Shown: one piece after another, positions 291 through 51,147 of the stretch
How positions within the stretch are numbered: the stretch's first letter is position 1
Layout of the letters: the number at the start of each line of letters is the position of its first letter
DNA from: a virus
Reading direction: 5' to 3' (one strand)
Virus record (IMG/VR): IMGVR_UViG_3300042691_014963
Coordinates: 1 to 53,623 of that record
Length of the DNA: 53,623 bases
Notes under the pieces: model-generated
What the model was told of the DNA's origin: nothing
The model's input: only the letters and a program-made list of their open reading frames with translations
The model's database searches: none
Program-made: the position numbers and the translations under genes

Positions 291-333
291 CTTCAGGACC
301 AATACGGACAATATATGATAATAATAATGTAAA
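291..333 (+). promoter_or_regulatory. Conserved promoter-like element, copy 1 (divergent)
   Basis: Weakest of ten copies. The upstream box reads CTTCA instead of TTACA. The central TACGG (303-307) and TGATAATA (from 316) keep exactly the spacing of the other copies (12 and 25 nt from the first base of the upstream box). It precedes the gene at 345-569. Confidence 0.5.
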
Positions 334-344
334 TTAAATATAAT

Positions 345-569
345 ATGAGACTAATTAAAAATACTGCTTCAAATGCAGCCGAATTGTACAAGTTATTGGG
401 TAATAACAATACCGTATACTATAAAAGATTGGGCATGGTTCAAGTAAATAAGTTAGAACTACTTGAAAACCCAGCATCTAACATAGTTGTTGTGTATACT
501 CACGACGGTTCTGACTATTCAATCTTCATTCAGGACATTGTTGAGGTTTTTGACTTCGATCTTAACTAA
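345..569 (+). CDS. Small hypothetical phage protein (74 aa)
   Basis: An intact ATG-started frame of 74 residues, acidic toward the C terminus (ends DIVEVFDFDLN), with no recognised domain. It follows promoter-like copy 1 by a few bases of A/T-rich leader, which supports it as a real early gene. Downstream is the non-coding stretch 570-1047, beginning with a hairpin that also occurs in front of the helix-turn-helix gene at 7252. Confidence 0.55.
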   Translation: MRLIKNTASNAAELYKLLGNNNTVYYKRLGMVQVNKLELLENPASNIVVVYTHDGSDYSIFIQDIVEVFDFDLN

Positions 570-574
570 AATAG

Positions 575-621
575 TGCGACGTTAGCCTACTATATTATTA
601 GTTTAATGAGCTAATGTCACA
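575..621 (+). repeat. Hairpin element, copy 1 (start codon inside stem)
   Basis: The arms TGCGACGTTAGC (575-586) and GCTAATGTCACA (610-621) pair over 12 positions with one mismatch and one G-T wobble, around a 23-nt A/T-rich loop. The same element recurs at 7213-7259. In both copies an ATG followed by TCN CA lies inside the right arm, so the encoded peptide begins Met-Ser-His. Confidence 0.65.
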
Positions 622-688
622 CTTTTACATAATATCCCGGAGGGATAATACACGAATGTGTATAGCAACGCGTATAGCATTCACCTAA
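614..688 (+). CDS. Possible 24-residue leader peptide or relic ORF
   Basis: A very short frame starts at the ATG buried in the right arm of the hairpin (614-616) and runs 24 codons to a TAA at 686-688. Its first three residues (Met-Ser-His) match the start of the protein encoded at 7252, but the rest does not. It could be a leader peptide, a relic of a duplicated gene start, or a chance frame. It contains a small inverted repeat (ATCCC..GGGAT) near 635-646. Confidence 0.2.
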   Translation: MSHFYIISRRDNTRMCIATRIAFT

Positions 689-695
689 AACTCCC

Positions 696-734
696 TTACA
701 ATAGAAATACGACGGTAAAATGATAATATATGTG
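696..734 (+). promoter_or_regulatory. Conserved promoter-like element, copy 2
   Basis: TTACA at 696, TACGA 12 nt later and TGATAATATA starting at 721, exactly 25 nt after the first T of TTACA. No gene follows immediately; the next element is about 120 nt downstream, so it would drive a short non-coding transcript. Confidence 0.65.
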
Positions 735-819
735 AGGCCTGGCTTTGAAATAGAGTCGGAAGAGTGGACTCCGTCCTACACTATAGTTAAATAAGTGTCG
801 ATCTTCACCCAAAACTCGC

Positions 820-864
820 TTACAAAACGAATACGAACTCAATTTGATAATATAAATGTAACAA
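820..864 (+). promoter_or_regulatory. Conserved promoter-like element, copy 3
   Basis: TTACA at 820, ATACGA in the middle, and TGATAATATAAATG from 845 (offset 25), followed by TAACAAA. Again no gene follows directly. Confidence 0.7.
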
Positions 865-988
865 ATAACAAGTAAAATGATTAAAATAACTTAAAATTGT
901 AAGTAAAATTGATAAAATTGTTGTAAATAGAGAGATACTCTATAATACCTGTACTTCTTTTTTTTTAAGCAAATAAAGTGCAACCTTC

Positions 989-1033
989 TTACAATAAAAA
1001 TACGAATTGAAATTGATAATATAAATGTAACAA
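989..1033 (+). promoter_or_regulatory. Conserved promoter-like element, copy 4
   Basis: TTACA at 989, ATACGA, then TGATAATATAAATG from 1014 (offset 25) and TAACAAA. It lies just upstream of the ATG at 1048 and is one of the copies closest to the consensus. Confidence 0.75.
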
Positions 1034-1047
1034 AAACAAGTAAAAAT

Positions 1048-1347
1048 ATGAATTACCAAATAGTAGAAAGTAGAGAAATAGTATGGTGTGATAACGATGA
1101 CCGTTATATACTAATTATTAAAGAAAATGATGAGATTGTTGGCTTAAATTACATGCAAGGTGATGAACTTGATGTGTTTAAAGCGGATTTCATGTATATC
1201 GATTATGACTTAACCGACTTTTTTAAAGCGATTGAACCGTACTTAGTACACGAAAATGAGGTTGGCCGTATAAATGCGGCAATATGGGCTCACTTTGAAT
1301 ACACGAATTTAAAATTTGAGAGAAAATATATTAATGATAAAAAATAG
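1048..1347 (+). CDS. Hypothetical acidic phage protein (99 aa)
   Basis: An intact frame of 99 residues that starts 15 nt after a near-perfect promoter-like element. The protein is acidic and aromatic-rich with no recognised domain. It starts a run of small genes (1048-2031) whose products resemble short host-interaction or regulatory proteins of lytic phages; that role is inferred from position only. Confidence 0.65.
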   Translation: MNYQIVESREIVWCDNDDRYILIIKENDEIVGLNYMQGDELDVFKADFMYIDYDLTDFFKAIEPYLVHENEVGRINAAIWAHFEYTNLKFERKYINDKK

Positions 1348-1354
1348 TAAAATT

Positions 1355-1477
1355 ATGGAAGAATATAGTGATTGCTGTGGTGCAGGTAGACACCATATAT
1401 ATGATGAATTATGCGCGGATTGTTTAGAGCATTTTGTAGAATGCGAAGATTTTGATGAAGATGGTTTTACAAAATAA
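1355..1477 (+). CDS. Small Cys-rich putative zinc-binding protein (40 aa)
   Basis: A 40-residue frame begins at ATG 1355, eight bases after the preceding stop. It carries a CCGAG motif and a CADCLEH motif about 14 residues later, a small treble-clef or zinc-ribbon pattern seen in many short phage proteins of unknown function. The C terminus is acidic. The last codons overlap the beginning of promoter-like copy 5. Confidence 0.6.
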   Translation: MEEYSDCCGAGRHHIYDELCADCLEHFVECEDFDEDGFTK

Positions 1478-1510
1478 ATACGATAACAAATTGATAATAT
1501 TAATATAAAA
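1467..1510 (+). promoter_or_regulatory. Conserved promoter-like element, copy 5
   Basis: TTACA at 1467, ATACGA, and TGATAATATTAAT from 1492 (offset 25). The upstream box lies inside the last codons of the preceding gene. It drives 1520-1687. Confidence 0.7.
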
Positions 1511-1519
1511 AAATAACCT

Positions 1520-1687
1520 ATGAAATATCAAGTAAAAATAACCGAGTATTTAAGTAGAATAGTTGAAGTTGAAGCCGAAGACGAAGTTGATGCAAGACTA
1601 TTAGCGGAAGAAATGTATTGTGGCCAAGAAATAGTATTAGACTATGATGACTTCGATGATGTTGAATTTGAAATATATAATGATTGA
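1520..1687 (+). CDS. DpnD/PcfM-like protein (55 aa)
   Basis: A 55-residue frame starting MKYQVKITEYLSRIVEVEAE and continuing with a pattern of alternating acidic residues, an LAEEMY helix and a DDFDDVEFE end. This resembles the small DpnD/PcfM-like family (beta-strand, helix, beta-strand), found in phages and conjugative elements and of unknown molecular function. It is directly downstream of promoter-like copy 5; the next gene starts three bases after its stop. Confidence 0.65.
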   Translation: MKYQVKITEYLSRIVEVEAEDEVDARLLAEEMYCGQEIVLDYDDFDDVEFEIYND

Positions 1688-1689
1688 TT

Positions 1690-2031
1690 ATGGCAAATAA
1701 AATAACAATGGATTCGGTGCATGCTTTTATTGCGGGTAAACCGTTTCGTAGAGAAAATATGGATGTAACCGTTAACAGTAATGGTGTATATTTAAGATTG
1801 CACGGTAATATTATTGCATTGCGTGGCGATGACGGTAAAGTATACATTAGAAATTGTGGTTGGGAAACCAATACAACTAAAATGAGGTTGAATTATTTAT
1901 TACATGCCCTTAATTCCCCGTTGAAGATTGTGCAAAAAAATTGGATATGGTATTTAGGTAATAAAAAATGGGACGGTGGTAAAACTTACGTATATGACGA
2001 GACTTACAATCTAAATACGATAACAAATTGA
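1690..2031 (+). CDS. Hypothetical phage protein (113 aa)
   Basis: The ATG at 1690 is preferred over the TTG six bases upstream, because it directly follows the stop of the preceding gene. The protein has a central strand-rich section (GNIIALRGDDGKVYIR) and a basic, Trp-rich second half; no family recognised. Its final codons (TYNLNTITN) are encoded by the promoter-like element that starts the next transcription unit. Confidence 0.6.
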   Translation: MANKITMDSVHAFIAGKPFRRENMDVTVNSNGVYLRLHGNIIALRGDDGKVYIRNCGWETNTTKMRLNYLLHALNSPLKIVQKNWIWYLGNKKWDGGKTYVYDETYNLNTITN

Positions 2032-2048
2032 TAATATAAATGTAACAA
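2004..2048 (+). promoter_or_regulatory. Conserved promoter-like element, copy 6
   Basis: TTACA at 2004, ATACGA, TGATAATATAAATG from 2029 (offset 25) and TAACAAA. The upstream half is also protein-coding (end of 1690-2031), so the same bases serve two functions. It drives the cluster 2061-3542. Confidence 0.75.
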
Positions 2049-2060
2049 AAAATAATTACT

Positions 2061-2243
2061 ATGCAAAATTCAATCAAGTTTTTAAAGAATAATTTAATCA
2101 AATTAAATGGCGTGTTATATACACCATATACTGTAGGCGACTTACCAAATACCTTTGGATTTATTTACGATAATGAAAAAGAAACTGAAGGCTATAGCGA
2201 GTGGTTTAATTTCAAAGGTTTAACTTATATAATCAAGAAGTAA
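2061..2243 (+). CDS. Small hypothetical protein (60 aa)
   Basis: First gene after promoter-like copy 6, 60 residues, with a YTPYTVGDLP segment and a basic end. No domain recognised. The next gene starts one base after its stop, so the two are translationally coupled. Confidence 0.55.
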   Translation: MQNSIKFLKNNLIKLNGVLYTPYTVGDLPNTFGFIYDNEKETEGYSEWFNFKGLTYIIKK

Positions 2244-2244
2244 T

Positions 2245-2493
2245 ATGATAGTAGTAGCGACCAATATGAAAGAAGCGTGCCAATATCTTGAAGAAAAGAA
2301 AGCGCGCAATAGAGCCAACCGTATAAATGCGGTTAATACAAACGGATTATGTGGTAAGTTTACTAGCGAAGATTATAAGCAAGTAAAAACTAAAATGAAA
2401 GGTGCTGCCAACCGCAAAGCCAAAACCTTTAGCGTGACTAAATACTGGAATTACAATAACCTAACATTAAAAGAAATTAAAGACAAATATTAA
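2245..2493 (+). CDS. Small basic hypothetical protein (82 aa)
   Basis: 82 residues, rich in Lys, Arg and Asn, with an N-terminal helix (EACQYLEEKKARNRANR). The basic charge would suit nucleic-acid binding, but no domain is recognised. It lies in a tightly packed operon with one-base gaps on both sides. Confidence 0.55.
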   Translation: MIVVATNMKEACQYLEEKKARNRANRINAVNTNGLCGKFTSEDYKQVKTKMKGAANRKAKTFSVTKYWNYNNLTLKEIKDKY

Positions 2494-2494
2494 T

Positions 2495-2686
2495 ATGAAA
2501 AAATTAAACGGATTTGAAAGTTATTTAGTAACCGAGGGATTAAATATTCTACGTAGTGAGTGGAGAAATGAAATTAAATTAGCTGAAACAAATGGTAAAA
2601 TTCCATTAATGACTGAAGCTTATGTAGATATGGTTGTTGATGAAACAATTGAAAAAATTAAATTATTAACATTAAAACAAAAGTAA
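2495..2686 (+). CDS. Small hypothetical protein (63 aa)
   Basis: 63 residues, predicted to be mostly helical; the sequence shows no known domain. Neighbours on both sides are one base away, supporting real translation as part of the 2061-3542 operon. Confidence 0.55.
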   Translation: MKKLNGFESYLVTEGLNILRSEWRNEIKLAETNGKIPLMTEAYVDMVVDETIEKIKLLTLKQK

Positions 2687-2687
2687 A

Positions 2688-3002
2688 ATGGCTGAAAATA
2701 CAGGGCAATTAGACAAATTAATAGAAGATAAAGTAGATGCAAAAATTAGAGAATTTGCATCAAGTATAAGTAATCAAATAAAAGATTTCCTTAAAGACAA
2801 TGGTGATTATAGCGGCGACTATATATACCAAGCTGATGGGTTTGAGTTCCGCAATAGTTGTTTTGAACCAACCACATTTTCACATAAGCCAGTGAATAAT
2901 ATATATAAAAATATTAAAGGTGGATTAGAGTTATCTATTAAAAATAAAATGATTGAAAGAGCAACTAAAGATTTATTAGCTAAAGTAGCGTTATTATCAT
3001 GA
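2688..3002 (+). CDS. Hypothetical protein with N-terminal helix (104 aa)
   Basis: 104 residues, beginning with a long amphipathic helix (LDKLIEDKVDAKIREFASSI) and followed by an aromatic section. No recognised family. The stop codon overlaps the ATG of the next gene. Confidence 0.55.
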   Translation: MAENTGQLDKLIEDKVDAKIREFASSISNQIKDFLKDNGDYSGDYIYQADGFEFRNSCFEPTTFSHKPVNNIYKNIKGGLELSIKNKMIERATKDLLAKVALLS

Positions 3003-3223
3003 AAGAAAGATATATTACCATGCGCAATAGTAACCAGCTTGACATTGGTTTGCTATACACGCTTGCTTGTGACGAAGGTTTAGTTGCACCGATCGACCAT
3101 TTTGCAATGGCAATGTCGTTCGCTAATATCCAGCAAATTTTAGACCATTTAGACAGTAAATTTGAATTAACAAAATTATTCGGCAAAGACGGTAATTTTA
3201 TAAAAGTAATAAACAATGAATAA
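2999..3223 (+). CDS. Small hypothetical protein (74 aa)
   Basis: Starts in an ATGA overlap with the upstream gene and overlaps the next by eight bases. The 74-residue product is helical and slightly acidic, without a recognised domain. Confidence 0.55.
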   Translation: MKERYITMRNSNQLDIGLLYTLACDEGLVAPIDHFAMAMSFANIQQILDHLDSKFELTKLFGKDGNFIKVINNE

Positions 3224-3542
3224 AAAGTACAGATTAAAAGAAGACGGCACTAGAGAAGTGGCTATATTAATATCTCGCGGGTATGGTGCCGGTTGGGTTT
3301 CATGGATATATAATGCAGATGTATTATTTGATGAAAATATTGTTGATTTTGTATTAAATGATAAAGTTGACAGCGAAGAATTCGATAAATATATGGAAGA
3401 CACATACCCTAATGCATACATTGGCGGTAAAGACGGACTAACTGTTGTATGGTTAAATGAAGGTACTGAATTTCAAATTGAAGAATATGACGGCGCTGAG
3501 TCTTTGCGTCTTAAAGATGGGGAATACTGGCACAAAGCGTAG
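3216..3542 (+). CDS. Hypothetical protein (108 aa)
   Basis: 108 residues. The N-terminal part (REVAILISRGYGAGWVSW) is a pattern I associate with short conserved phage proteins of unknown function. The C-terminal half is acidic with strand-like segments (FQIEEYDGAESL). Its stop codon overlaps the upstream edge of promoter-like copy 7. Confidence 0.6.
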   Translation: MNKKYRLKEDGTREVAILISRGYGAGWVSWIYNADVLFDENIVDFVLNDKVDSEEFDKYMEDTYPNAYIGGKDGLTVVWLNEGTEFQIEEYDGAESLRLKDGEYWHKA

Positions 3543-3589
3543 TTACAATCTGAATATGATTAACAAATGATAATATATATGTAACAAAT
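3543..3589 (+). promoter_or_regulatory. Conserved promoter-like element, copy 7
   Basis: TTACA at 3543, AATATGA in place of AATACGA, TGATAATATATATG from 3568 (offset 25), then TAACAAA. It follows directly on the stop codon of the gene ending at 3542 and drives 3603-4226. Confidence 0.72.
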
Positions 3590-3602
3590 AAAAAATACAA
3601 CA

Positions 3603-3854
3603 ATGAGTGATTTAACTAAAAAAATTAATGTAGTAAGCAGATTGGCTACCCTGTCTAAAGTAGTAGACTTTGATAACTTTTATAATATAAGTATCTCTAT
3701 CCGCAACGATCAAGTTTCTTTGCAAGGCTATTTAACCAATGAAAACCTTGTAGCCGCTAAAAAACTAGACGTATTTTTAGAATATGATAACAATATGGAA
3801 ATGCTTAGAGGCGAATCCGAAGATGGTAAATTAAGAATCGTATTAACTACATAA
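3603..3854 (+). CDS. Small hypothetical protein (83 aa)
   Basis: First gene behind promoter-like copy 7; 83 residues with alternating polar and hydrophobic positions in the middle (ISISIRNDQVSLQGYL), suggesting a small beta-sheet fold. No family recognised. Confidence 0.55.
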   Translation: MSDLTKKINVVSRLATLSKVVDFDNFYNISISIRNDQVSLQGYLTNENLVAAKKLDVFLEYDNNMEMLRGESEDGKLRIVLTT

Positions 3855-3856
3855 TC

Positions 3857-4033
3857 ATGGAAAAAGAAAGATTAGCATACCAAGAAGCATTAGCATTTGA
3901 AGTGTGGATGCGTGAAATAGTAAAGACTGTACACTATGCCGATAATGAAAAAATGGCAGAAGCATACGATCGAGTGTTTAACAATGCATTAGAAATAAAG
4001 ATATATGAGAATACTAAACCAAAAAGAACTTGA
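3857..4033 (+). CDS. Small helical hypothetical protein (58 aa)
   Basis: A 58-residue frame from ATG 3857, two bases after the preceding stop, with helix-favouring composition (AYQEALAFEVWMREIVK). Its 3' end overlaps the next gene by 29 bases. The position inside a tightly packed operon supports it; no function is visible. Confidence 0.5.
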   Translation: MEKERLAYQEALAFEVWMREIVKTVHYADNEKMAEAYDRVFNNALEIKIYENTKPKRT

Positions 4034-4226
4034 CTTAGTTAGACTTGCCGTGCTTGAAGGACTTGAAGAAACTCAAAATTGGTTGTGGATAGATTTTAAA
4101 GTAGGTAATGATTCTTTAACGGTACACCAACAGCACCGTTTAAATCAAATTACCGATTTGCTATACACACTTTTCTGCGAAGTTGTCGAACAAGATGGCG
4201 TCTTACAGTCTGAATACGATCGATAA
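4005..4226 (+). CDS. Small helical hypothetical protein (73 aa)
   Basis: 73 residues, two helices (ELDLVRLAVLEGLEETQN and INQITDLLYTLFCEVV-like) joined by a polar segment. The last codons (QSEYDR) lie within promoter-like copy 8, as for the gene at 1690-2031. No recognised family. Confidence 0.55.
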   Translation: MRILNQKELDLVRLAVLEGLEETQNWLWIDFKVGNDSLTVHQQHRLNQITDLLYTLFCEVVEQDGVLQSEYDR

Positions 4227-4249
4227 ATGATAATATAAATGTAACCAAT
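4203..4249 (+). promoter_or_regulatory. Conserved promoter-like element, copy 8
   Basis: TTACAG at 4203, AATACGA, TGATAATATAAATG from 4228 (offset 25), then TAACCAA. It overlaps the 3' end of the preceding gene and drives 4263-5459. Confidence 0.74.
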
Positions 4250-4262
4250 AAAATATAATAAA

Positions 4263-4625
4263 ATGGATAAAATAAACGACCTGTTCGATCAGGAAATTAC
4301 AAAAACTGTAGATGCTTACCCAAGTATCTTTTCTAAAGATGATGTCGTTAACTTATTAAGTTCATTGCGAACTCAAGTATTAACTGAAGTATCAGAATTA
4401 AAACCTACAGACAGTACATATGATGTAAATGCAATCAATCGAGCTGTTGCCGATATAATAGATAATATTGATTTTTATGAATATATATATTCTGAACCTG
4501 AATTACATTGTTCTTACGGCTCTAGTTTTACGCTTGAATTAAATAATTCATTTGATGCTTACCAATTTAGCAGACAAATGGAAACAGAGTTAACCGATTA
4601 TTTCAACGATCTAGACAAAAAATAA
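4263..4625 (+). CDS. Hypothetical acidic protein (120 aa)
   Basis: 120 residues, acidic and helical, no recognised domain. First gene of the 4263-5459 unit; its TAA stop overlaps the next ATG by one base. Confidence 0.55.
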   Translation: MDKINDLFDQEITKTVDAYPSIFSKDDVVNLLSSLRTQVLTEVSELKPTDSTYDVNAINRAVADIIDNIDFYEYIYSEPELHCSYGSSFTLELNNSFDAYQFSRQMETELTDYFNDLDKK

Positions 4626-4873
4626 TGACAGCAAAACAAGTTAAAGACTATATACAAAATACGCTTAATCAAACGCCTCGGCACAGTTGTAGTGCCTTGG
4701 CTAAAGCGATAACAAAAGCGAGTAAAAAGTTTAATCAGAATGAATTTGATATGATGTATTTGTTACTTGAAAATGCACCTATTGACAATTATACACATAG
4801 TTATGGTTTTCATACTGCATACGGAAGAGAATTAATAAATACAATGAGTGATTATTACTATAAATATAACTAA
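4625..4873 (+). CDS. Small hypothetical protein (82 aa)
   Basis: 82 residues, basic N-terminal half with a helix (CSALAKAITKASKKFN) and an aromatic C-terminal half. Translationally coupled to the gene upstream through a TAATG overlap. No function recognised. Confidence 0.55.
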   Translation: MTAKQVKDYIQNTLNQTPRHSCSALAKAITKASKKFNQNEFDMMYLLLENAPIDNYTHSYGFHTAYGRELINTMSDYYYKYN

Positions 4874-4888
4874 TAATAAATAAATAAT

Positions 4889-5221
4889 ATGACTTTTACA
4901 ATTAATATCGGGTTGCTTAATAATCCTTATTCAGCCCAAGAAGTAATGGATTATCTAAAAACAATGCGCGGTTATAAATTACTGCAATTAACGCAAAGCA
5001 GCGGTAGTTACCATGATTTAATTGAACCTACAATTGTTGCTGAACTTGAAACTAATTATAAATTATTAAGTAAAGTTGTTGCAACTGTTGAAAACCTATG
5101 CGCCGTATTTGAACAAGAATGTATCGCTATTAGCTCCGATCAATTTGATTTGCTAGTATACGGTATCAAGCATGTAGGTTTTAAAGATAAATTTGATAAT
5201 GAATATTTTTTAACTATTTAA
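4889..5221 (+). CDS. Hypothetical protein (110 aa)
   Basis: 110 residues, mainly helical with a central acidic stretch; no domain recognised. A short A/T-rich spacer separates it from its neighbours. Confidence 0.55.
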   Translation: MTFTINIGLLNNPYSAQEVMDYLKTMRGYKLLQLTQSSGSYHDLIEPTIVAELETNYKLLSKVVATVENLCAVFEQECIAISSDQFDLLVYGIKHVGFKDKFDNEYFLTI

Positions 5222-5231
5222 TATAATAACT

Positions 5232-5459
5232 ATGACTAATGTAAACTTAGTGGAATCACTAACGGTTGATAGTAGCGCTATTTCAGAAGTCGCTTACTAT
5301 CCAAATGTCGAAAGATTAATTGTATTATTCAAAAGTGGTAAAGCGTACGAATATTTAAACGTACCGGGCCATGTAATGAATGGTTTAAGAGAAGCCTCAT
5401 CTAAAGGTAAATTCTTAAACAAATACATACTAGCACAATACAGATTTAAGAAACTGTAG
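5232..5459 (+). CDS. KTSC domain protein (75 aa)
   Basis: The 75-residue product matches the KTSC family pattern over almost its full length: DSSAISEVAYYP, LIVLFKSGKAYEYLNVP, then a helix and SKGKFLNKYI. KTSC domains are small beta-rich units, found alone in phages or fused to lysyl-tRNA synthetase-like proteins, with no firmly established function. It is the last gene before the structured non-coding region, whose first bases follow the stop directly. Confidence 0.8.
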   Translation: MTNVNLVESLTVDSSAISEVAYYPNVERLIVLFKSGKAYEYLNVPGHVMNGLREASSKGKFLNKYILAQYRFKKL

Positions 5460-5890
5460 TTGCTATACACGGTTGTCCTACTGATCCGCGCGGTAAGGTA
5501 GTGTAGAGGCCGTGTTCGACTCTGGGAGCAGTGAGTTCGTTAAATAAGAACTGTTCAAATAAGCATTTCCTTTAGGAATAATATGCTGTTAATTTCTGGG
5601 ATCACGTAAAGGCAGACCTTATTAGGTTGTGATCGAATTGCAAATAAAGGACAGAACCGGGTTGCAAATTAACTAAGAGCTAAGTACAGGGGTCCTGAAG
5701 GGCTAGTACGACCGACGGGTTAAGGGGTTCGGTTCCCCTTTTAGTTCCAAATATATAGTTAATAAGGCGTGAGTTCAGTAATCCTCCCATTTACACGCTT
5801 AGTGGAGGTAATTAACTATAAAAGGTGCTTATCGCTACTGGGCATTTCCCGGTAGTATCTGGATATAAGCTAAGTGTGAGTTCGTCAAGC
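5460..5890 (+). ncRNA. Candidate structured non-coding RNA region
   Basis: About 430 nt without a plausible gene but dense in strong inverted repeats. Hairpins: AGTTC/GAACT (5534-5552); AGCAT+TTCC/GGAA+ATGCT (5562-5587); GATCAC/GTGATC closing GACCT/AGGTT (5600-5634); the 10-bp perfect pair TATAGTTAAT/ATTAACTATA (5754-5763 with 5811-5820) enclosing GCGTG/CACGC; and GCTTAT/ATAAGC enclosing CTACTGGG/CCCGGTAG (5827-5870). A tRNA-like outer shape lies at 5671-5747. The octamer GTGAGTTC occurs three times (5531, 5769, 5876). Local GC content is clearly above the neighbouring genes. It ends just before promoter-like copy 9. I do not recognise a known RNA family. Confidence 0.55.
5671..5747 (+). ncRNA. 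tRNA-like element (acceptor and T-arm only)
   Basis: AACTAAG (5671-5677) pairs over 7 bp with TTTAGTT (5740-5746). Immediately inside lies a perfect T-arm: AGGGG, the loop TTCGGTT, CCCCT (5723-5739). The total is 77 nt including one discriminator-like base, the length of a normal tRNA. The 45 nt between do not fold into acceptable D and anticodon arms by eye, and no encoded CCA follows in register. It may be a degenerate tRNA or a tRNA mimic. Confidence 0.35.
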
Positions 5891-5891
5891 C

Positions 5892-5938
5892 TTACAGTAT
5901 AAACACGATTAAACAATGATAATATTAATGTAACCAAT
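5892..5938 (+). promoter_or_regulatory. Conserved promoter-like element, copy 9
   Basis: TTACAG at 5892, AACACGA, TGATAATATTAATG from 5917 (offset 25), then TAACCAA. It lies at the boundary between the structured non-coding region and the gene at 5950. Confidence 0.73.
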
Positions 5939-5949
5939 TAAATTAAATT

Positions 5950-6429
5950 ATGAATATATTTTATCTATCTACAGATCCTAAAAAAGCGGCTAAGTATATG
6001 TATAACAAGCATGTAGTAAAAATGATCTTAGAATCTGCTCAATTGTTATGTACCGCTCATGTAATATCTGACGGTGAAAATGCCAACGTACCTTATAAAG
6101 CAACTCATAAAAATCATCCGTCTGCAATATGGACACGCGAGTCAATCTCTAATTACAAATGGTTGTACGATCATATGATTGCACTTGGTGAAGAATACAC
6201 AAGACGTTATGGCAAAAAACATTTAACAATATTAAAATGTAGTGGCGTGCTAAGTAAAGCACCGGCTAATATAACTAAAACTGAATTAACACCAATGCCA
6301 CAATGCATGCCCGATCAATACAAAGTTCCCGGCAATAGCGTTGAAGCATACTGGAATTATTATGAAGCTGAAAAAGTTAATGTAAAAAATGCAAACGAAT
6401 CTATAATAACAAGGCCAACAATATTATGA
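5950..6429 (+). CDS. Conserved phage protein, possibly DNA glycosylase-like
   Basis: 159 residues beginning MNIFYLSTDPKKAAKYMYNK and HVVKMILESAQLL, followed by a PYKATHKNHPSAIW segment and a TRRYGKKH motif. This combination is widespread in T4-like, cyanobacterial and other marine phages and is sometimes annotated as pyrimidine dimer DNA glycosylase-like; activity has not been shown as far as I know. Several His residues (HVVKM, HKNHPS) could form an active site. The gene heads the unit behind promoter copy 9 and overlaps the next gene by 4 bases. Confidence 0.65.
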   Translation: MNIFYLSTDPKKAAKYMYNKHVVKMILESAQLLCTAHVISDGENANVPYKATHKNHPSAIWTRESISNYKWLYDHMIALGEEYTRRYGKKHLTILKCSGVLSKAPANITKTELTPMPQCMPDQYKVPGNSVEAYWNYYEAEKVNVKNANESIITRPTIL

Positions 6430-6611
6430 CACCAAAAGAAAAAGCAGAAGAATTGTATTTTAAAATGTATGATGTATATGGTTATGATGATTATCGTTTA
6501 CGAGCTATAAAATGTGCATTAATAACAGTTGATGAGATATTGAAAATAATACATACAAATATGGAAGATAAATATTGGCAAGAAGTTAAACAAGAAATAG
6601 AAAAGTTATGA
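6426..6611 (+). CDS. Small paralogous protein A (61 aa)
   Basis: 61 residues with the layout MTPKEKAEELYFKMY, then KCALITVDEILK, then a YWQEVKQEIEKL end. The next gene has the same three blocks, so the two are tandem paralogs. Similar short helical proteins are common in Bacteroidota phages and have no known function. ATGA overlaps link it to both neighbours. Confidence 0.65.
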   Translation: MTPKEKAEELYFKMYDVYGYDDYRLRAIKCALITVDEILKIIHTNMEDKYWQEVKQEIEKL

Positions 6612-6826
6612 CAGTAAAAGAAAAAGCAGAAGAGTTATTCAATAAATACTATAGTTATTTAAAAGCTAATTTAATGAATGATGAAGAAGCAAGAGAAGAT
6701 GCTAAGGAATGTGCATTAATAGCAGTTGATGAGGTATTAAAAGAATTAAATAAAAATGTTTGGATTTTTAACGAATTTAGAAGCAAATATTGGGAAGAAG
6801 TTAAACGAGAAATTGAGAAGTTATGA
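6608..6826 (+). CDS. Small paralogous protein B (72 aa)
   Basis: 72 residues sharing EKAEEL near the N terminus, ECALIAVDEVLKEL in the middle and YWEEVKREIEKL at the end with the upstream gene. It is longer by an 11-residue insertion in the middle. A recent local duplication is the simplest explanation. Starts in an ATGA overlap. Confidence 0.65.
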   Translation: MTVKEKAEELFNKYYSYLKANLMNDEEAREDAKECALIAVDEVLKELNKNVWIFNEFRSKYWEEVKREIEKL

Positions 6827-7020
6827 CAAGAGAAGAATTAAATGAAGCCGCAAGTAATAAAATTGGGTCTAAATTAGAATGTTTATTACGTGAAGATATG
6901 GAAAAGTATGTCAATTGGGGCATAAGCGCTGAGACAGTACGTGATATGATTGAATCACATAAAAGAGAAGTAAAATTATGGAGTTATATATTCCAATTAA
7001 TAGAACAAGATAATAAATAA
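6823..7020 (+). CDS. Small helical hypothetical protein (65 aa)
   Basis: 65 residues, helical and charged, starting in an ATGA overlap with the paralog pair. The N-terminal MTREELNEAA resembles the start of its neighbours, but the rest does not align. Function unknown. Confidence 0.55.
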   Translation: MTREELNEAASNKIGSKLECLLREDMEKYVNWGISAETVRDMIESHKREVKLWSYIFQLIEQDNK

Positions 7021-7024
7021 AATT

Positions 7025-7201
7025 ATGGCAGATATAACAATGTGTAAGGGCAATAACTGCAAATTAAGTAGTAATTGCTATAGATATAAAGCAACACAGG
7101 ATGAATATAGACAATCTTGGTTTGTTAAAGAACCTAATACAACAGAAAATGAATGTGAATATTATTGGGAATATAAAAAACCAAAAGATAATAAAAGCTA
7201 A
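7025..7201 (+). CDS. Small Cys-rich protein, putative metal binding (58 aa)
   Basis: A 58-residue frame from ATG 7025, four bases after the preceding stop. It carries CKGNNCKLSSNCYRYKA followed later by ECEYYWEY, a four-Cys pattern of small zinc- or iron-binding proteins seen in many phages. It is the last gene before hairpin copy 2. Confidence 0.6.
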   Translation: MADITMCKGNNCKLSSNCYRYKATQDEYRQSWFVKEPNTTENECEYYWEYKKPKDNKS

Positions 7202-7212
7202 TGAAACAAAAA

Positions 7213-7259
7213 TGTGACGTTAGCTAATTAATATAATAAAATAGCAAGCTAATGTCGCA
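7213..7259 (+). repeat. Hairpin element, copy 2 (start codon inside stem)
   Basis: TGTGACGTTAGCT (7213-7225) pairs with AGCTAATGTCGCA (7247-7259) over 13 positions, all Watson-Crick or G-T wobble, around a 21-nt A/T-rich loop. The ATG of the next gene (7252-7254) lies in the right arm. Relative to copy 1 (575-621) the arms changed but still pair. It may be a translational switch or a binding site for the gene product; both are inference. Confidence 0.65.
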
Positions 7260-7869
7260 TAGGAATTTAGAATACTTAAATAAAAAACGAGTGATATATA
7301 GACGTGGACCAATTAATGATAAGCCAAGTGAAGAGTTTGAATGGGGTAACTTCTATGAGTCAGGCACAAACGAATGTTATGAATTATTCAGAAGTAAAGC
7401 TAAAATTCCAACATATAAGTCTTTAAAGTGGCATTTATATGTTATATGGTATTTAAATCCTGATATGGATCAGAATGCATTTGAAGCTATCGCTAGGTTT
7501 ATATGTGAAAAGAATAACGGTTTTGTAACGTTCAATGTAAGTGAACAGCTATTACAAAGCATGATGTACGAAGTATCTTTAAAAGATCTTGATGAACCTC
7601 CTTATAATAAAACTCGTAAGATTATATTTAAGGATAACTGTAAGTTAACTGTCACTGAGAAGTTATCTATAGTAGGACAAATGATTGGTAAGACTAAAAA
7701 AGTTAGCGAATCCGATATATACGATGCGATGCTATACATGCACGATCTGCATCAAAAAATCACAATAAGCAAACTCGCTAATCATTTTGGTTGTACCTCA
7801 AGAACTATTCATCGCAATATGAGTAATGAACTTAAAAAAGAAAAAGAACTATTAAATCAATCATTATGA
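7252..7869 (+). CDS. Putative helix-turn-helix regulator (205 aa)
   Basis: 205 residues. The C-terminal 45 residues fit a helix-turn-helix: KITISKLANHFGCTSRTIHR, followed by a charged helix. The upstream part (KLTVTEKLSIVGQMIGKTKK and an SDIYDAMLYMHDLH helix) is helical and not assigned. This layout suggests a DNA-binding regulator or replication-initiation-like protein. The start codon is buried in hairpin copy 2, so translation may be controlled by RNA structure or by the protein itself. ATGA overlap with the next gene. Confidence 0.6.
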   Translation: MSHRNLEYLNKKRVIYRRGPINDKPSEEFEWGNFYESGTNECYELFRSKAKIPTYKSLKWHLYVIWYLNPDMDQNAFEAIARFICEKNNGFVTFNVSEQLLQSMMYEVSLKDLDEPPYNKTRKIIFKDNCKLTVTEKLSIVGQMIGKTKKVSESDIYDAMLYMHDLHQKITISKLANHFGCTSRTIHRNMSNELKKEKELLNQSL

Positions 7870-8084
7870 CAGAAGAAGAATATATTTGTAATTGGTGTAA
7901 AAAAAATTTTTATACAGAAAAACAAGCAGATGAATATGCTATTGAGTTTGCAGAATGGTGCGATAATAATTACTTTAGAATGGGTAATACTTCTATATGG
8001 AGCGATTCAACAGATTGGGAGGATAATATAAAAATTACCACAAAAGAACTATTAGAAATATTTAAAAAAGAAAAAGGATTATGA
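7866..8084 (+). CDS. Small protein with CxxC motif (72 aa)
   Basis: 72 residues with an N-terminal CNWCKK motif, many Trp and acidic residues, and a Lys-rich end. A single CxxC is not enough to call zinc binding. ATGA overlaps on both sides place it in a tight operon (7252-8702). Confidence 0.55.
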   Translation: MTEEEYICNWCKKNFYTEKQADEYAIEFAEWCDNNYFRMGNTSIWSDSTDWEDNIKITTKELLEIFKKEKGL

Positions 8085-8308
8085 TTAATTATAAAAAAGA
8101 GCTTGTAAGGTATCTTAAAGAATGCCATACAGAAACATCTGCAAAACATTTAATAATTACTTTAGAATCTGAAAAAGAATTTTGGAAAACAGATTTAAAA
8201 GCATATTTATCAGCAAGTGATAATTACGAACATATGAAAGACTTGATTGATAGAATATCAGAAGTAAATGAACAAATAAAAATTGTTAAAAAAGAGAAAG
8301 GATTATGA
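8081..8308 (+). CDS. Small charged helical protein (75 aa)
   Basis: 75 residues, highly charged and predicted to be helical or coiled coil through most of its length (IDRISEVNEQIKIVKKEKGL). It ends in KKEKGL like its upstream neighbour, hinting at shared origin of the tail. No known family. Confidence 0.55.
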   Translation: MINYKKELVRYLKECHTETSAKHLIITLESEKEFWKTDLKAYLSASDNYEHMKDLIDRISEVNEQIKIVKKEKGL

Positions 8309-8505
8309 AACAATTCTTAATATTCACTATAACTTGGATAGCTAGTAACTTAGCAATTCCATTTTGGGTTGTAGGGCATGTACATTTAACAATTAATATA
8401 TATGAAGATATTTATGAAATTATCACCTCTTGTTGGCTGAATATATTAGTTGGCATAGGATTTTGGATAGAATGGAAAAATAATATAAAACAAAATAGAT
8501 TATGA
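8305..8505 (+). CDS. Small membrane protein (66 aa)
   Basis: 66 residues with two hydrophobic segments (about residues 3-25 and 40-55) separated by a short acidic loop, and a basic C-terminal tail. It is the only clear membrane protein in this arm. A role in envelope modification, superinfection exclusion or lysis is possible, but nothing in the sequence decides this. Confidence 0.6.
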   Translation: MKQFLIFTITWIASNLAIPFWVVGHVHLTINIYEDIYEIITSCWLNILVGIGFWIEWKNNIKQNRL

Positions 8506-8702
8506 CAGCAGTAGAATGGTTATATAATAATTTAAAATCACATTTTGAGCATAATGGTGATTTATTAGAAGCAGTGCAAATTAGTTTCAATATAGCTAAA
8601 GAAATGGAGATGCAACAAATAATAGATGCTTATGATGTACAATGGGAATATGATGTAAAAAACGGAAAAGATTACTATAATAAAAAATTTAAAAACAAAT
8701 AA
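8502..8702 (+). CDS. Small hypothetical protein (66 aa)
   Basis: 66 residues; the N-terminal half (TAVEWLYNNLKSHF..LLEAVQISFNIAKEME) matches a short helical protein type frequent in Bacteroidota phages, with the rest charged. Unknown function. Starts in an ATGA overlap and ends three bases before the sigma factor gene. Confidence 0.6.
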   Translation: MTAVEWLYNNLKSHFEHNGDLLEAVQISFNIAKEMEMQQIIDAYDVQWEYDVKNGKDYYNKKFKNK

Positions 8703-8705
8703 AAT

Positions 8706-9473
8706 ATGAAAAGTTACAACATACCAAATTATATCAGGTATAAAGAAGATATTAAACAAACTAATAAAGATAGTGAATCAATTGATTTTAAATCATACCC
8801 AAGGGATAAACTAATCGCTAGATTTTTACCATTAGTTGAGAACATTGCAAAGAAGTTTTCTACAACTACGCAAGCATGCGGTGTATTAGATATTACAGAT
8901 CTTATTCAATACGGATCTATTGGTTTAGTGCAGGCAATTGACAAAATTGAATGGGACACAATTAGGGACAGTGATAACCAAGAAAGTACATTAAAATCAT
9001 TTTTATCTAAAAGAATTAAAGGTTCAATTAGAAGAGCAATTGATATTAATAGAGGTTCAATTAAAATTCCTGAATATAAATTATTAGAAATTAGAAAGAA
9101 TAGTGCAAATGATCAAAAGTTAGTTGCAATGTTTTTTAATTCAATATTTTTAAGTATTGATGAACAAATGAATAATGATAATGAAGATTTGTTTGAAGCA
9201 TATCAAATACCAGATCAGCATGAATTTTATAATATAGAATTAATGAATATCTATTTAACAAGTTTATTAAAGAAGCATCTTGATGACCGGGAGTTTGAAG
9301 TATTACGATTAAGTTACGGATTAGATTGTGATAAACATTCCGCAAATGATATTGCAGATAAGTTAGGAATCGAGGGACCGAGCGCTTATGTTAGAATTTC
9401 AGAGATAAAAAAGCAAGCGATTAACAAGTTAATTGATAATGTAGATTCCTCACAAGTCCTTGATTACCTATAA
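8706..9473 (+). CDS. Sigma-70 family RNA polymerase sigma factor
   Basis: 255 residues. Region 2 is visible at about residues 33-110: FLPLVENIAKKFS, then DLIQYGSIGLVQAIDK and an FLSKRIKGSIRRAI helix. Region 4 lies at about 190-245: LDDREFEVLRLSYGL, then a helix-turn-helix around SANDIADKLGIEGPSAYVR. Regions 1 and 3 are short or absent. It would redirect host RNA polymerase to phage promoters. Because the conserved elements in this arm share a rigid architecture, they or a late promoter set outside the window are candidate targets; that link is inference. Confidence 0.85.
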   Translation: MKSYNIPNYIRYKEDIKQTNKDSESIDFKSYPRDKLIARFLPLVENIAKKFSTTTQACGVLDITDLIQYGSIGLVQAIDKIEWDTIRDSDNQESTLKSFLSKRIKGSIRRAIDINRGSIKIPEYKLLEIRKNSANDQKLVAMFFNSIFLSIDEQMNNDNEDLFEAYQIPDQHEFYNIELMNIYLTSLLKKHLDDREFEVLRLSYGLDCDKHSANDIADKLGIEGPSAYVRISEIKKQAINKLIDNVDSSQVLDYL

Positions 9474-9486
9474 GTTAAATGTAAAA

Positions 9487-9520
9487 TTAACAAAAAATAC
9501 GTAATTATATTAATATAAAA
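9487..9520 (+). promoter_or_regulatory. Possible variant promoter upstream of the Erf gene
   Basis: AATACGTAATTATATTAATA in the 69-nt gap between the sigma factor and Erf genes. It keeps a TACG core about 13 nt upstream of a TAATATAAAAG block but lacks the TGATAATATAAATG of the ten main copies. A related ACGTAATTATA string lies at 10852-10862 before the HNH gene. It may be a separate (middle) promoter class. Confidence 0.35.
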
Positions 9521-9542
9521 GTTAAACAATTAAATCAAATAT

Positions 9543-10103
9543 ATGGCAACAAAAAAAGAAGAAAAAGAATTAACGCTTAACGAAAAATTAGCGATTATTC
9601 AAACTGAATTCAAATCTAAAAAATCTAGATTCAATTCATTTGGTAAGTACAATTTTAGATCTGCTGAAGATATTCTTGAGGCAACTAAACCGTTTTTATT
9701 AAGATTAGGTGTTACAGTTGCAGTTACAGAAACGCTTATTGATAACAAAGACTTTCCAATATTAGAGTCTACTGCTACAATCAGTGATGGGTTTTCAGCA
9801 ATAACAGCAACAGCAATTGTAGGCGTTGATCTTGATCAAAAAGGTATGCAAATGCCTCAGAAGTTTGGATCAGCATCAAGTTATGGTAAGAAGTATGCAT
9901 TAGGTAATCTATTCTTAATCGATGACACTCAAGATCCAGATCATGGCAAAGCAGATCCTGAAGTTAAGAAGGCTGCGTTAACTGTTAATGACCCTGCATT
10001 TGAAAAAGCAAAAGATTTTATAGCAAAAGGCGGATCGATTGATACAATCAAAAAGAAATACGAATTAGACGCTGAAGCATCTAAAATATTAGAATCACTA
10101 TAA
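9543..10103 (+). CDS. erf: Erf-type single-strand annealing protein
   Basis: 186 residues that follow the ERF superfamily: an N-terminal helix LNEKLAIIQTEFKSKKSR, then KYNFRSAEDILEA, an SATISDG strand, and the family signature FGSASSYGKKYALGNLFLID followed by DDTQDPD. These proteins anneal complementary single strands and act in recombination-dependent replication. The next gene encodes a PD-(D/E)XK nuclease, the usual partner of an annealase. The gene starts its own unit after a 69-nt gap. Confidence 0.88.
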   Translation: MATKKEEKELTLNEKLAIIQTEFKSKKSRFNSFGKYNFRSAEDILEATKPFLLRLGVTVAVTETLIDNKDFPILESTATISDGFSAITATAIVGVDLDQKGMQMPQKFGSASSYGKKYALGNLFLIDDTQDPDHGKADPEVKKAALTVNDPAFEKAKDFIAKGGSIDTIKKKYELDAEASKILESL

Positions 10104-10104
10104 T

Positions 10105-10836
10105 ATGACTAAAGAAGAAATCTTAGAAAAATTAAAAGATGATGAGCATTATTATGGTGAGTTTGGTAAAAACTTTTTAAGTAATTCAAATATATCTGCA
10201 TTACTTACTAATCCATTATTGCTGAATGAACCTCAGCCTCCAAATCCTAATTTTGTAATTGGTGGCTACTTTCATACGGCAATATTGGAACCTGATAAGT
10301 TAGATAAGTATAAAATCATTAAAGCAACAACCAGAAATACTAATGTGTATAAAGAACTATCTGGTGGAGAAATCTGTTTATTACAACATGAAGCAGATAA
10401 AATAGAGTTAATGAAAGATACGATGCTGGCTAATAACATTTGCAAAGATCTAATACGCGGATTCAATGTTGAATATGAAAAGCCAGGCATTGCTGAATTA
10501 TTTAATGTAATGTGGAAAGGTAAAGCAGATATTATCAATCATGATGAAGGTCTTATTATAGATCTTAAAACAACTTCTAATATAACAGAATTTGCATATT
10601 CCGCACGAAAATATAATTATGATAGTCAAGCATATATTTATAAAAATTTATTCGGATATGATCTTATTTTCATAGCTATTGATAAAGTTACACATCAAAT
10701 CGGTATATTTGATTGTTCAGATAAATTTTTACAATCAGGTGAAGATAAAGTAAAGAGAGCTGCTGAAGCTTATGAATTATTCTACAAAACAGAGGACTTT
10801 GACCCTCAACAATTTTTAGTGACCCGTACATTGTAA
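10105..10836 (+). CDS. PD-(D/E)XK nuclease, recombination exonuclease-like
   Basis: 243 residues, one base after the Erf gene. The core reads WKGKADIINHDEGLIIDLKT, with the Asp of KAD and the D-L-K giving the D...(D/E)xK signature, then a YDSQAYIY helix typical of RecB/exonuclease VIII-like phage nucleases. The N-terminal GGYFHTAILEPDKLDKY matches the same group. It would resect DNA ends to produce the single strands used by Erf. Confidence 0.82.
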   Translation: MTKEEILEKLKDDEHYYGEFGKNFLSNSNISALLTNPLLLNEPQPPNPNFVIGGYFHTAILEPDKLDKYKIIKATTRNTNVYKELSGGEICLLQHEADKIELMKDTMLANNICKDLIRGFNVEYEKPGIAELFNVMWKGKADIINHDEGLIIDLKTTSNITEFAYSARKYNYDSQAYIYKNLFGYDLIFIAIDKVTHQIGIFDCSDKFLQSGEDKVKRAAEAYELFYKTEDFDPQQFLVTRTL

Positions 10837-10890
10837 ATAAATATAAAATGACGTAATTATAAAAGCATAACAACATACAATTAATTAGTT

Positions 10891-11433
10891 ATGACTGCAG
10901 AAGAACGTAAAGAAAAAAGAAAAGCATATATGAAAGAGTATATGCTTTCTTATAATAAAAAGTATTATTCAAATAATAAAAATGATATTAGACTATCACA
11001 AAAAGAATATTACAATGCTAATAAAGAAAAAATAAGAGAACAACAAAATGATTATTTTAAAGAATATAGAATAAAAAATAAAATAAAAATTAATGAATAT
11101 TCTAGAAATAGAAGAAGAAATAACCCTTTATATAAATTAAAAAACATACTTAGAACTAGAATATATTACTTTCTAAAATCTAAAAAGTTTATAAAAAATA
11201 AAAATACAGAAGAAATTATTGGGTGTTCTTATATAAATTTTAAAGAATATTTGGAACTATTATTTAAAGATAATATGAGTTGGGAAAACCATGGAGAATG
11301 GCATATTGATCATATAATACCTTTAGATAGTGCAGAAAACGAAGAAGATATAATTAAGTTATGTCATTATTCTAACTTACAGCCTTTATGGGCTAATGAA
11401 AATTTAATTAAATCAAACAAAATTACTAACTAA
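10891..11433 (+). CDS. HNH endonuclease, probably homing type
   Basis: 180 residues. The N-terminal ~70 residues are very basic with short repeated AYMKEYM / NKKYYSNNK-like units. The C-terminal HNH core includes WHIDHIIPLD, then an LCHYSNLQPLWANENLIKSN segment with the conserved Asn residues. It sits between the nuclease and SSB genes of the recombination module, each separated by short gaps, as expected for a free-standing homing endonuclease. The gene is more AT- and Lys-rich than its neighbours, fitting recent acquisition. Confidence 0.85.
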   Translation: MTAEERKEKRKAYMKEYMLSYNKKYYSNNKNDIRLSQKEYYNANKEKIREQQNDYFKEYRIKNKIKINEYSRNRRRNNPLYKLKNILRTRIYYFLKSKKFIKNKNTEEIIGCSYINFKEYLELLFKDNMSWENHGEWHIDHIIPLDSAENEEDIIKLCHYSNLQPLWANENLIKSNKITN

Positions 11434-11445
11434 AAACAAAAAAAA

Positions 11446-11760
11446 ATGGCCTCCATCATTAAAGCGAGTATCAATTTAAACGAAATCCCTAAGCACAAAA
11501 TTATAGACGGCAAGAAAGGAAAGTACCTTCCCATTACAATTACATTAAATGACGAAGTAGATCAATTTGGTAATCAAGGACCAATACAAGTAGAACAAAC
11601 AAAAGAAGAACGTGAATCTAAAGCAGCTAAAACATATCTTGGAAATGTTAAAGTGGTATGGACGAATGGTCAAAATGTTGCTGCTGCACCCAGAACTGAT
11701 GGGCAGTCTACCCCGGGACAAAGAGTGGCCGCGACAGTAGAAGATGATCTACCATTTTAA
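11446..11760 (+). CDS. ssb: Single-stranded DNA-binding protein-like
   Basis: 104 residues with an N-terminal ASIIKASINLNEIPKHKI strand pattern, a KGKYLPITITLNDE strand pair and the acidic C-terminal tail EDDLPF. Such a D/E-rich tail ending in Phe is typical of SSB proteins and recruits replication partners. The protein is shorter than bacterial SSB and resembles small phage SSBs. It lies between recombination genes and the primase-helicase, followed by a terminator. Confidence 0.78.
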   Translation: MASIIKASINLNEIPKHKIIDGKKGKYLPITITLNDEVDQFGNQGPIQVEQTKEERESKAAKTYLGNVKVVWTNGQNVAAAPRTDGQSTPGQRVAATVEDDLPF

Positions 11761-11772
11761 GATTATATATTT

Positions 11773-11816
11773 ATAGAATAGTTAAGCCCCACAAGTTGGG
11801 GTTTAATTATCTATAA
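11773..11816 (+). terminator. Rho-independent terminator after ssb
   Basis: GTTAAGCCCCA and TGGGGTTTAA pair around a CAAGT loop (11782-11806), with an extended A/T stem from the flanking TATAG and CTATA. It ends the recombination unit just before promoter copy 10. Confidence 0.7.
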
Positions 11817-11826
11817 TAGTAAGCTC

Positions 11827-11869
11827 TTACAATCTAAACACGATTGTATAATGATAATACATATAACAA
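11827..11869 (+). promoter_or_regulatory. Conserved promoter-like element, copy 10
   Basis: TTACAAT at 11827, AACACGA, TGATAATACATA from 11852 (offset 25), then TAACAAA. It follows the terminator and drives the replication and nucleotide-metabolism genes from 11930 on. Confidence 0.7.
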
Positions 11870-47236: not shown

Positions 47237-47511
47237 TATTTGGATCTCCCTTCTGCAAAGCCTTTAAATGTTTTTGCTATTGGTTCTTTTTCGCTTTCTT
47301 CTAACATTTTTTCCTCTTCTTCAATCCGACTAAGAATTTCAAAAGCATCAAATATAGCTAGTTTTTTTGTTGCCGCCGCATTCTTTAATTTATCTGCTGC
47401 TAAATCATCATCCCCATTATCTAGAATAGCTTCTTCTGCAACTTTAATAAGCTCCAATACCGCTTTGTGACCAGCTTGGACTATATTCTTCTTCGTCTCC
47501 TTTATATTCAT
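47236..47511 (-). CDS. Small helical protein upstream of terL (91 aa)
   Basis: 91 residues, mainly helical with a clear charge pattern (GDDDLAADKLKNAAATKKLA, SRIEEEEKMLEESEKEP). Its stop overlaps the terL start by one base. A small terminase subunit is possible from position and helical design, but no HTH is evident. It overlaps the GroES-like gene by 68 bases. Confidence 0.6.
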   Translation of the reverse strand: MNIKETKKNIVQAGHKAVLELIKVAEEAILDNGDDDLAADKLKNAAATKKLAIFDAFEILSRIEEEEKMLEESEKEPIAKTFKGFAEGRSK

Positions 47512-48061
47512 ATTTAATTACAATATCATTAGATTTCATACAATATAATCGCTGGCCTTCTATTATAAATTCAAATTCGCCATTCGGCGTATATCCAACT
47601 AAGTCTCCAGGATTAATTTTAAGCGCTTTTAAAGCGTCATTTCCATATTTTAATATTCCAATAAGCTTACGCTCTTTATCGAGCTTTAAATGGTCTATAT
47701 TTTTTAATGGCTTAATAAAGCATCTGTCTCCAAATGATTTCCATTCACCGTCTGTTTTATATAAATATATTTGATCTAAATCACAAAAAAATTGATTATC
47801 CATAAAATAGGACCTACTATTTTTTTTATTTCCTTTAGTGTCATAAAATACTCTAAAAACATTATGATGTATAATAACAAAATCACCTTCTTTTATATCT
47901 GTTTTATAAGCTAATGGTGTTGAAACAACTTGTGCTAAATTATTAACAGATCTAAAACTTTCAATTTTAGTGTTTAATATTAAATTTTTACCTTCAATAT
48001 TTATTTCGTTATCATATCTTTCGCCTACTGGCTTTACAATAAAACTAAATACACTACGCAT
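47444..48061 (-). CDS. Double GroES-like protein (205 aa)
   Basis: 205 residues. The second half (RCFIKPLKNID... KINPGDLVGYTPNG, EFEFIIEGQRLYCMKSNDIV) follows the GroES strand order including the GD(R/L)V turn and the final MxxxDI strand. The first half has a similar turn (IKEGDFVIIHHNVFRVF) and a matching strand order, so the protein looks like two GroES domains in tandem. It could replace or complement a GroES ring for folding a phage protein such as the capsid. No mobile-loop sequence can be assigned by eye. Confidence 0.65.
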   Translation of the reverse strand: MRSVFSFIVKPVGERYDNEINIEGKNLILNTKIESFRSVNNLAQVVSTPLAYKTDIKEGDFVIIHHNVFRVFYDTKGNKKNSRSYFMDNQFFCDLDQIYLYKTDGEWKSFGDRCFIKPLKNIDHLKLDKERKLIGILKYGNDALKALKINPGDLVGYTPNGEFEFIIEGQRLYCMKSNDIVIKYEYKGDEEEYSPSWSQSGIGAY

Positions 48062-48071
48062 AATATATTAG

Positions 48072-48553: not shown

Positions 48554-48592
48554 TTTATTTGATTTAATTATTAATATTATTTTTTATTGTTT

Positions 48593-49629: not shown

Positions 49630-49631
49630 AA

Positions 49632-51103: not shown

Positions 51104-51147
51104 AATTAAATAATATTAAATTTATATAATATTATTATTACGTGTAT

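Follow-up and report, generated by a model that had tools for sequence, protein, structure and literature searches.

The repeated element and its genomic setting

The window analysed here is the whole of IMG/VR virus record IMGVR_UViG_3300042691_014963, 53,623 bases in length, and its left arm carries nine near-identical copies of the element TTACA-N7-YAYGA-N8-TGATAATA together with a degenerate tenth, all on one strand (Table 1). Forward genes extend to about 19.3 kb and encode small open reading frames (ORFs), a helix-turn-helix (HTH) protein, a sigma factor, ERF, an exonuclease, a primase/helicase, thymidylate synthase and ribonucleotide reductase; to the right of this point the genes are structural and in reverse orientation, giving two divergent arms. 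In protein comparisons the portal and terminase score 51% and 65%, respectively, to those of MW202828, and they are also similar to those of the Flavobacterium elemo phages and of Cellulophaga, Tenacibaculum and Maribacter phages. Given this resemblance to Bacteroidota phages, the window virus is a tailed phage of Bacteroidota, with a host that is probably a member of the Flavobacteriia. Part of the genome is probably missing from the record, as near-complete relatives measure 58-67 kb.

The initial annotation described ten copies sharing TTACA, TACGA 12 nt later and a third element 25 nt after the first T. All ten coordinates held up, and TTACA and TGATAATA are present without mismatch in all nine strong copies. 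The middle element is more variable than was claimed; TACGA occurs in six of the nine (696, 820, 989, 1467, 2004 and 4203) and is replaced by TATGA in copy 3543 and by CACGA in copies 5892 and 11827, while copy 291 (CTTCA/TACGG/TGATAATA) deviates in both its TTACA and TACGA parts. The full TGATAATATAAATG is exact in copies 820, 989, 2004 and 4203 only. With a matrix derived from the window the strong copies scored 45-53 bits, copy 291 scored 9 bits and the next best match 3.6, and pattern matches with at most three mismatches numbered 8 in the window versus 0 in 100 dinucleotide shuffles. Scanning the minus strand and the right arm of the window revealed no copy, which agrees with the proposed restriction to the left arm; the further claim that every copy lies upstream of a gene fails for sites 696 and 820, which directly precede no ORF of at least 60 amino acids (aa). 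Sites 1467, 2004 and 4203 lie partly within the 3' end of the gene before them.

Table 1. Positions of the motif copies and of the genes discussed in the text
Feature	Position	Strand	Remarks
Weak motif copy	291..329	+	predicted start 329; ATG of ORF 345-569 lies 16 nt downstream
Strong motif copy	696..734	+	predicted start 734; no ORF of at least 60 aa before next copy
Strong motif copy	820..858	+	predicted start 858; then 5-codon mini-ORF and T-run near 960
Strong motif copy	989..1027	+	predicted start 1027; ATG 1048
Strong motif copy	1467..1505	+	predicted start 1505; ATG 1520; overlaps end of preceding small ORF
Strong motif copy, best match	2004..2042	+	predicted start 2042; ATG 2061
Strong motif copy	3543..3581	+	predicted start 3581; ATG 3603
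Strong motif copy	4203..4241	+	predicted start 4241; ATG 4263
Strong motif copy	5892..5930	+	predicted start 5930; ATG 5950; last copy before HTH and sigma genes
Strong motif copy	11827..11865	+	precedes primase/helicase gene (ATG 11930)
205-aa protein with C-terminal HTH, possible co-regulator	7252..7869	+	just upstream of sigma
Sigma-70 family factor, 255 aa, proposed motif reader	8706..9473	+	PHROG 351, Pfam, PDB, AF2/Foldseek
2970-aa protein	19366-28278	minus	end of late arm; no family match

The motif in related phages and in cellular genomes

Related loci were selected by protein similarity to the sigma factor and the primase and not by the presence of the motif. Dozens of related uncultured phages carry the motif, which in 89 loci selected in this way is confined to the strand of the sigma and primase genes. 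A refined matrix for the whole phage group gave 258 forward matches versus 1 reverse match at any threshold from 10 to 16. Copy 291 reaches 22.9 bits with the group matrix and, given that reverse matches above 16 number only 1 against the 258 forward ones, is probably a real weak copy.

The consensus of 210 distinct sites is (T)TACARWCWAAAYACGA-N9-GATAATATAAATR. Among 442 occurrences of GATAATA, TACA lies 25 bases ahead in 189 and ACGA 13 bases ahead in 148, and the gap lengths (7, 9) are kept in 131 of 132 motif instances; the proposal made at the outset, to look for the 12/25 spacing in related genomes with a matrix, was thus carried through successfully. Base 25, directly before GATAATA, depends on the lineage and is nearly constant inside most genomes. 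YACGA is present in most lineages and has been lost from one whole clade; where present, it forms with the upstream box a direct repeat, TACAR-N6-YACGA, with an 11-bp period that ends 9 bp before the -10-like core. Across ten relatives of 58-67 kb (three with end overlaps) the sites begin at the divergent arm junction and extend into the replication genes, staying in the sigma-side arm with none reversed and with a single isolated site in one genome (G030) as the exception.

A search for the strict motif in 84,980 bacterial and archaeal species genomes found it only in three small contigs, and these carry genes of the window's phage group, so that they are probably mis-binned phage DNA. The motif contigs L267-L270 (JAGVEE010000375.1, NYWC01000123.1 and JAHEKB010000135.1) come from three bacterial metagenome-assembled genomes. 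A search of the literature library for this motif turned up no description of it.

Anatomy of the predicted promoters

If GATAAT is set to -12 to -7, TTACAR falls at -38 to -33, YACGA at -26 to -22 and base 38 after the first T becomes +1. Base 38, the seventh after GATAAT, is a purine at every one of the 210 distinct sites, and at 79% of them the base before it is a pyrimidine; we infer that transcription starts at this conserved purine. From the predicted start, the next ORF begins at a median distance of 20 nt, versus 177 nt for random positions, and 61% of sites have this distance between 10 and 45 nt versus 10% of random positions; the median 5' untranslated region in Flavobacterium psychrophilum is 24 bp (PMC9723704).

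Promoter classes reported for F. psychrophilum are those of sigma-A, sigma-54 and extracytoplasmic function (ECF) sigma factors, with the elements TAnnTTTG, TAnnTTGY, -24/-12 and a CGT box (PMC9723704), and our motif resembles none of these classes. It lacks the TAnnTTTG at -7 and TTTG at -33 of Bacteroidota sigma-A promoters, and it departs from the sigma-70 arrangement (TTGACA-N17-TATAAT, with a spacer of 16-18 bp) in having a spacer of 20 between TTACAR and GATAAT and a different upstream box. Both comparisons confirm the initial view that the architecture is unlike either type. Based on the fixed spacing, strand and position, the start-site-like purine, the absence from cellular genomes and the lack of resemblance to host classes, promoter-like function with a non-host architecture is well supported. 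As to timing, the promoters are predicted to be those of the early side.

A candidate sigma factor

The sigma factor gene of the window lies on the same strand as the motif. Its product matches PHROG 351 (E 1.3e-22) and contains regions 2 and 4, of which the Pfam model Sigma70_r2 exceeds its cut-off and r4 stays under it; a RIKG-type segment lies at region 2.4. The best PDB sequence match is the sigma-28 factor FliA (1rp3, E 5.5e-6), and an AlphaFold2 (AF2) model with a mean predicted local distance difference test score (pLDDT) of 77 was matched by Foldseek to sigma factors in initiation complexes (E 1.9e-6). The FliA -10 consensus, GCCGATAA, includes GATAA, and this fits the motif core GATAAT.

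Several features expected of phage sigma-dependent promoters are found together: a conserved motif is present in multiple copies in a fixed place and on a fixed strand before genes; a sigma-70 family gene resides in the same genome; and motif and sigma gene are present or absent together, a pattern that is confounded by ancestry and by fragmentary records. The motif is found in IMG/VR phages with a PHROG 351-type sigma gene, and there is one sigma in every motif record that reaches the relevant place; in all 13 records that have the motif and no sigma match, the sequence stops 0.1-1.8 kb past the final motif copy, short of where the sigma gene would be expected. Conversely, scanning nine related cultured or complete phages gave 0 motif hits in each, and eight of these had no sigma match, the ninth (Gundel_1) having a weak, partial match of 53 aa (E 4.6e-5).

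The distribution of host-type promoters points the same way. In four sigma-less relatives (MW202828, elemoA, phi10:1 and phi19:3, three of them examined in part) TAnnTTTG was found upstream of 42 of 105 genes, whereas in eleven sigma-bearing genomes it was found upstream of 13 of 365 (Fisher p 4e-20), a level near that of permuted controls. On these sequence counts, phage-specific elements occupy in the sigma-bearing lineage the place that host-type ones have in its relatives. As a separate observation, GTGTCGTTAACGACAC palindromes with an operator-like appearance precede early genes at 44500-49900 of MW202828 (L010), a record that annotates a repressor protein.

How the motif might be read, and by what

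We favor the possibility, with a probability of roughly 0.65, that the ten elements are promoters for the phage sigma factor acting with the host core RNA polymerase, which the phage would thereby divert to its own genes. The -10 element bound by the host core enzyme with this sigma would be GATAAT; TTACAR (about -38 to -33) would stand in for the -35/-33 element; and in most lineages YACGA would be an additional element at -26 to -22. RNA synthesis would start at the purine 38 bases after the first T, leaving a leader of mostly about 15-22 nt, and promoters of this kind would switch on the blocks of small genes at the arm junction, the operon of the sigma itself and the replication operon. 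The suggestion in the initial annotation that one protein, perhaps the phage sigma factor, recognises all copies gains support from the co-occurrence across records and the scarcity of host-type promoters in the lineage; it falls short of proof, as covariation fails to single out the sigma. The other suggestion made there, an unusual host RNA polymerase acting without phage help, is not favored because the motif is missing from hosts.

A number of observations weigh against the phage sigma as reader. Promoters of the sigma-70 type do not usually have three elements at completely rigid spacing, the co-occurrence of motif and sigma is confounded by shared ancestry and incomplete records, and the scan for host-type promoters covered three of the four sigma-less records only in part. 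Motif distances, computed over 37-47 genomes, track the primase and the HTH protein as well as or better than the sigma. Matrix-distance (Mantel) and nearest-neighbour tests for the reader were rejected as a means of identifying it, all genes following phylogeny about equally. Two pairs of phages, L069/L073 and L012/L015, have strongly different sigma factors and the same motif. There is also the problem that the sigma gene lies downstream of most motif copies in genomes with few host-type promoters (a consistent host-type promoter was not found in the region before the sigma operon), leaving the source of the first sigma unexplained. A scenario that we regard as rather doubtful is that the lineage gave up host promoters in both arms, so that early-side genes need phage-specific promoters from the start and infection can begin only if the virion brings in the sigma or some other specificity factor.

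One phage bears on the question from the other side. Between L049 and its near-identical neighbours, sigma identity is 67-69% and primase identity 96-97%, and the promoters of L049 differ from theirs at positions 8, 15 and 25, with the flanks of one orthologous promoter unchanged. It seems from these comparisons that L049 replaced its sigma, and the joint change of sigma and promoters would be suggestive, not decisive, support for the sigma as reader.

Activator-dependent promoters, in which a phage activator, perhaps the neighbouring HTH protein, binds TACAR-N6-YACGA in a PhoB-box-like layout and recruits RNA polymerase with a host or phage sigma, seem unlikely to us. A direct repeat with a period of 11 bp, one helical turn, does exist in the sequence. 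The HTH gene is present in 63 loci, always adjoins the sigma gene where both are covered and belongs to a conserved order, HTH-sigma-ERF-exonuclease; moreover, the distance between HTH proteins is the best correlate of YACGA (r 0.32-0.34; partial, with primase controlled for, 0.26-0.29), by a slight margin that also counts against the sigma. However, a whole clade has the HTH gene and lacks YACGA, and HTH proteins at 83-90% identity occur with both motif states (L049 versus L047/L050/L055). HTH_11 is a weak match in 28 of 40 members of this protein family, and the AF2 model (pLDDT 90) has no PDB fold match, to a known activator or otherwise.

It is improbable that, as in N4 and crAss-like phages, the early promoters are read by a phage RNA polymerase carried in with the virion, the sigma being reserved for later genes. 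Such a polymerase would suit the use of the motif by all junction-side genes, including those upstream of the sigma, and the near absence of host-type promoters, and a 2970-aa protein of no assigned function is encoded at the end of the late arm. A giant protein is nevertheless also present in sigma-less relatives that use host-type promoters, and the one in the window was set aside as an unlikely virion RNA polymerase (no DxDxD motif and no Pfam, PHROG or PDB match). For single-subunit polymerases, a -10-like element within a span of about 40 bp is not known to be typical. Inspection by eye picked out two stretches in the 2970-aa protein, HEITH (HExxH-like) and VVDFDDTLAF (DxDxT, HAD-like).

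Unmodified host holoenzyme, whether with sigma-A or an alternative host sigma, would explain the first transcripts, and GATAAT differs from TATAAT by one base. We think it very unlikely to be the reader in view of the absence of the motif from cellular genomes, the classes reported for hosts (TAnnTTTG, TAnnTTGY, -24/-12 and CGT box; PMC9723704) and the abundance of TAnnTTTG in sigma-less relatives instead. Finally, many copies in one arm with fixed internal spacing might be operators or replication or packaging repeats and not promoters at all, a notion that the fixed strand, fixed start-codon distance, start-site-like step and -10-like core make exceedingly improbable.

Other elements in the window

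Copies 696 and 820 could drive short RNAs in the interval 734-989, one of them ending at the T-run near 960. An inverted repeat, TGTGACGTTAGCT...AGCTAATGTCGCA, at 7211-7262 overlaps the HTH start codon, its place being kept in most relatives, and a second copy lies at about 573-622. The repeat at the HTH start may be an operator or serve translational control; a conserved RNA hairpin there was considered and rejected, pairing covariation being no better than in shuffles. A further promoter-like element, weaker than the motif and reading ACGTAATWATA or ACAAGTAATWAT, occurs at 9499 and 10851 and, on the minus strand, at 51143, 39076 and 32954; it precedes the ERF gene and several late genes and is found in orthologous places in relatives. 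The stretch 5460-5890 is non-coding and strongly folding with tRNA-like fragments, and it gave no ARAGORN or Rfam match; likewise, no tRNA or Rfam family was found to account for the non-coding DNA of the left arm.

Significance and comparison with known systems

Start sites and a regulon have been predicted from sequence alone for a widespread group of uncultured Bacteroidota phages and paired with one candidate sigma. A cluster of relatives appears to have switched between promoters of host type and phage-specific ones, which makes the rewiring of transcription open to comparative study. Rigid promoters together with their sigma could also form a separate expression system in Bacteroidota, where the usual bacterial promoters fail.

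Among known systems, FliA promoters have TAAA at -35 and a 15-bp spacer. The window sigma has FliA as its closest solved sequence relative, and GATAA is common to both -10 elements; the motif differs in that TTACAR lies further upstream and YACGA is additional. As in Bacteroidota sigma-A promoters, an upstream element would lie about 20 bp before the -10 region, in the manner of the -33 box, but neither box matches TTTG/TAnnTTTG. PhoB-box promoters contain two direct repeats 11 bp apart that end about 10 bp before the -10 element. The window motif has the same repeat geometry; in contrast to the PhoB case, no PhoB-like winged helix was recognised among the scanned proteins and one clade lacks the second repeat.

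We would class the motif as a variant of phage sigma-dependent promoters, with the phage sigma as the presumed reader. In phiEco32 and phage 7-11, host sigma-70 reads the early genes first, and a phage sigma then reads short middle and late promoters centred on the -10 element (PMC4331800). Common to those phages and the window group are a phage sigma (here the probable reader) working with host core enzyme, two opposed gene clusters and a small number of well-conserved, phage-specific, intergenic promoters. Their elements (TAATGTATA, and TGATGT with TG/TATA) serve structural genes too (PMC4331800), whereas the window phage group has three rigidly spaced elements that are confined to the early-side arm, with host-type promoters nearly absent.

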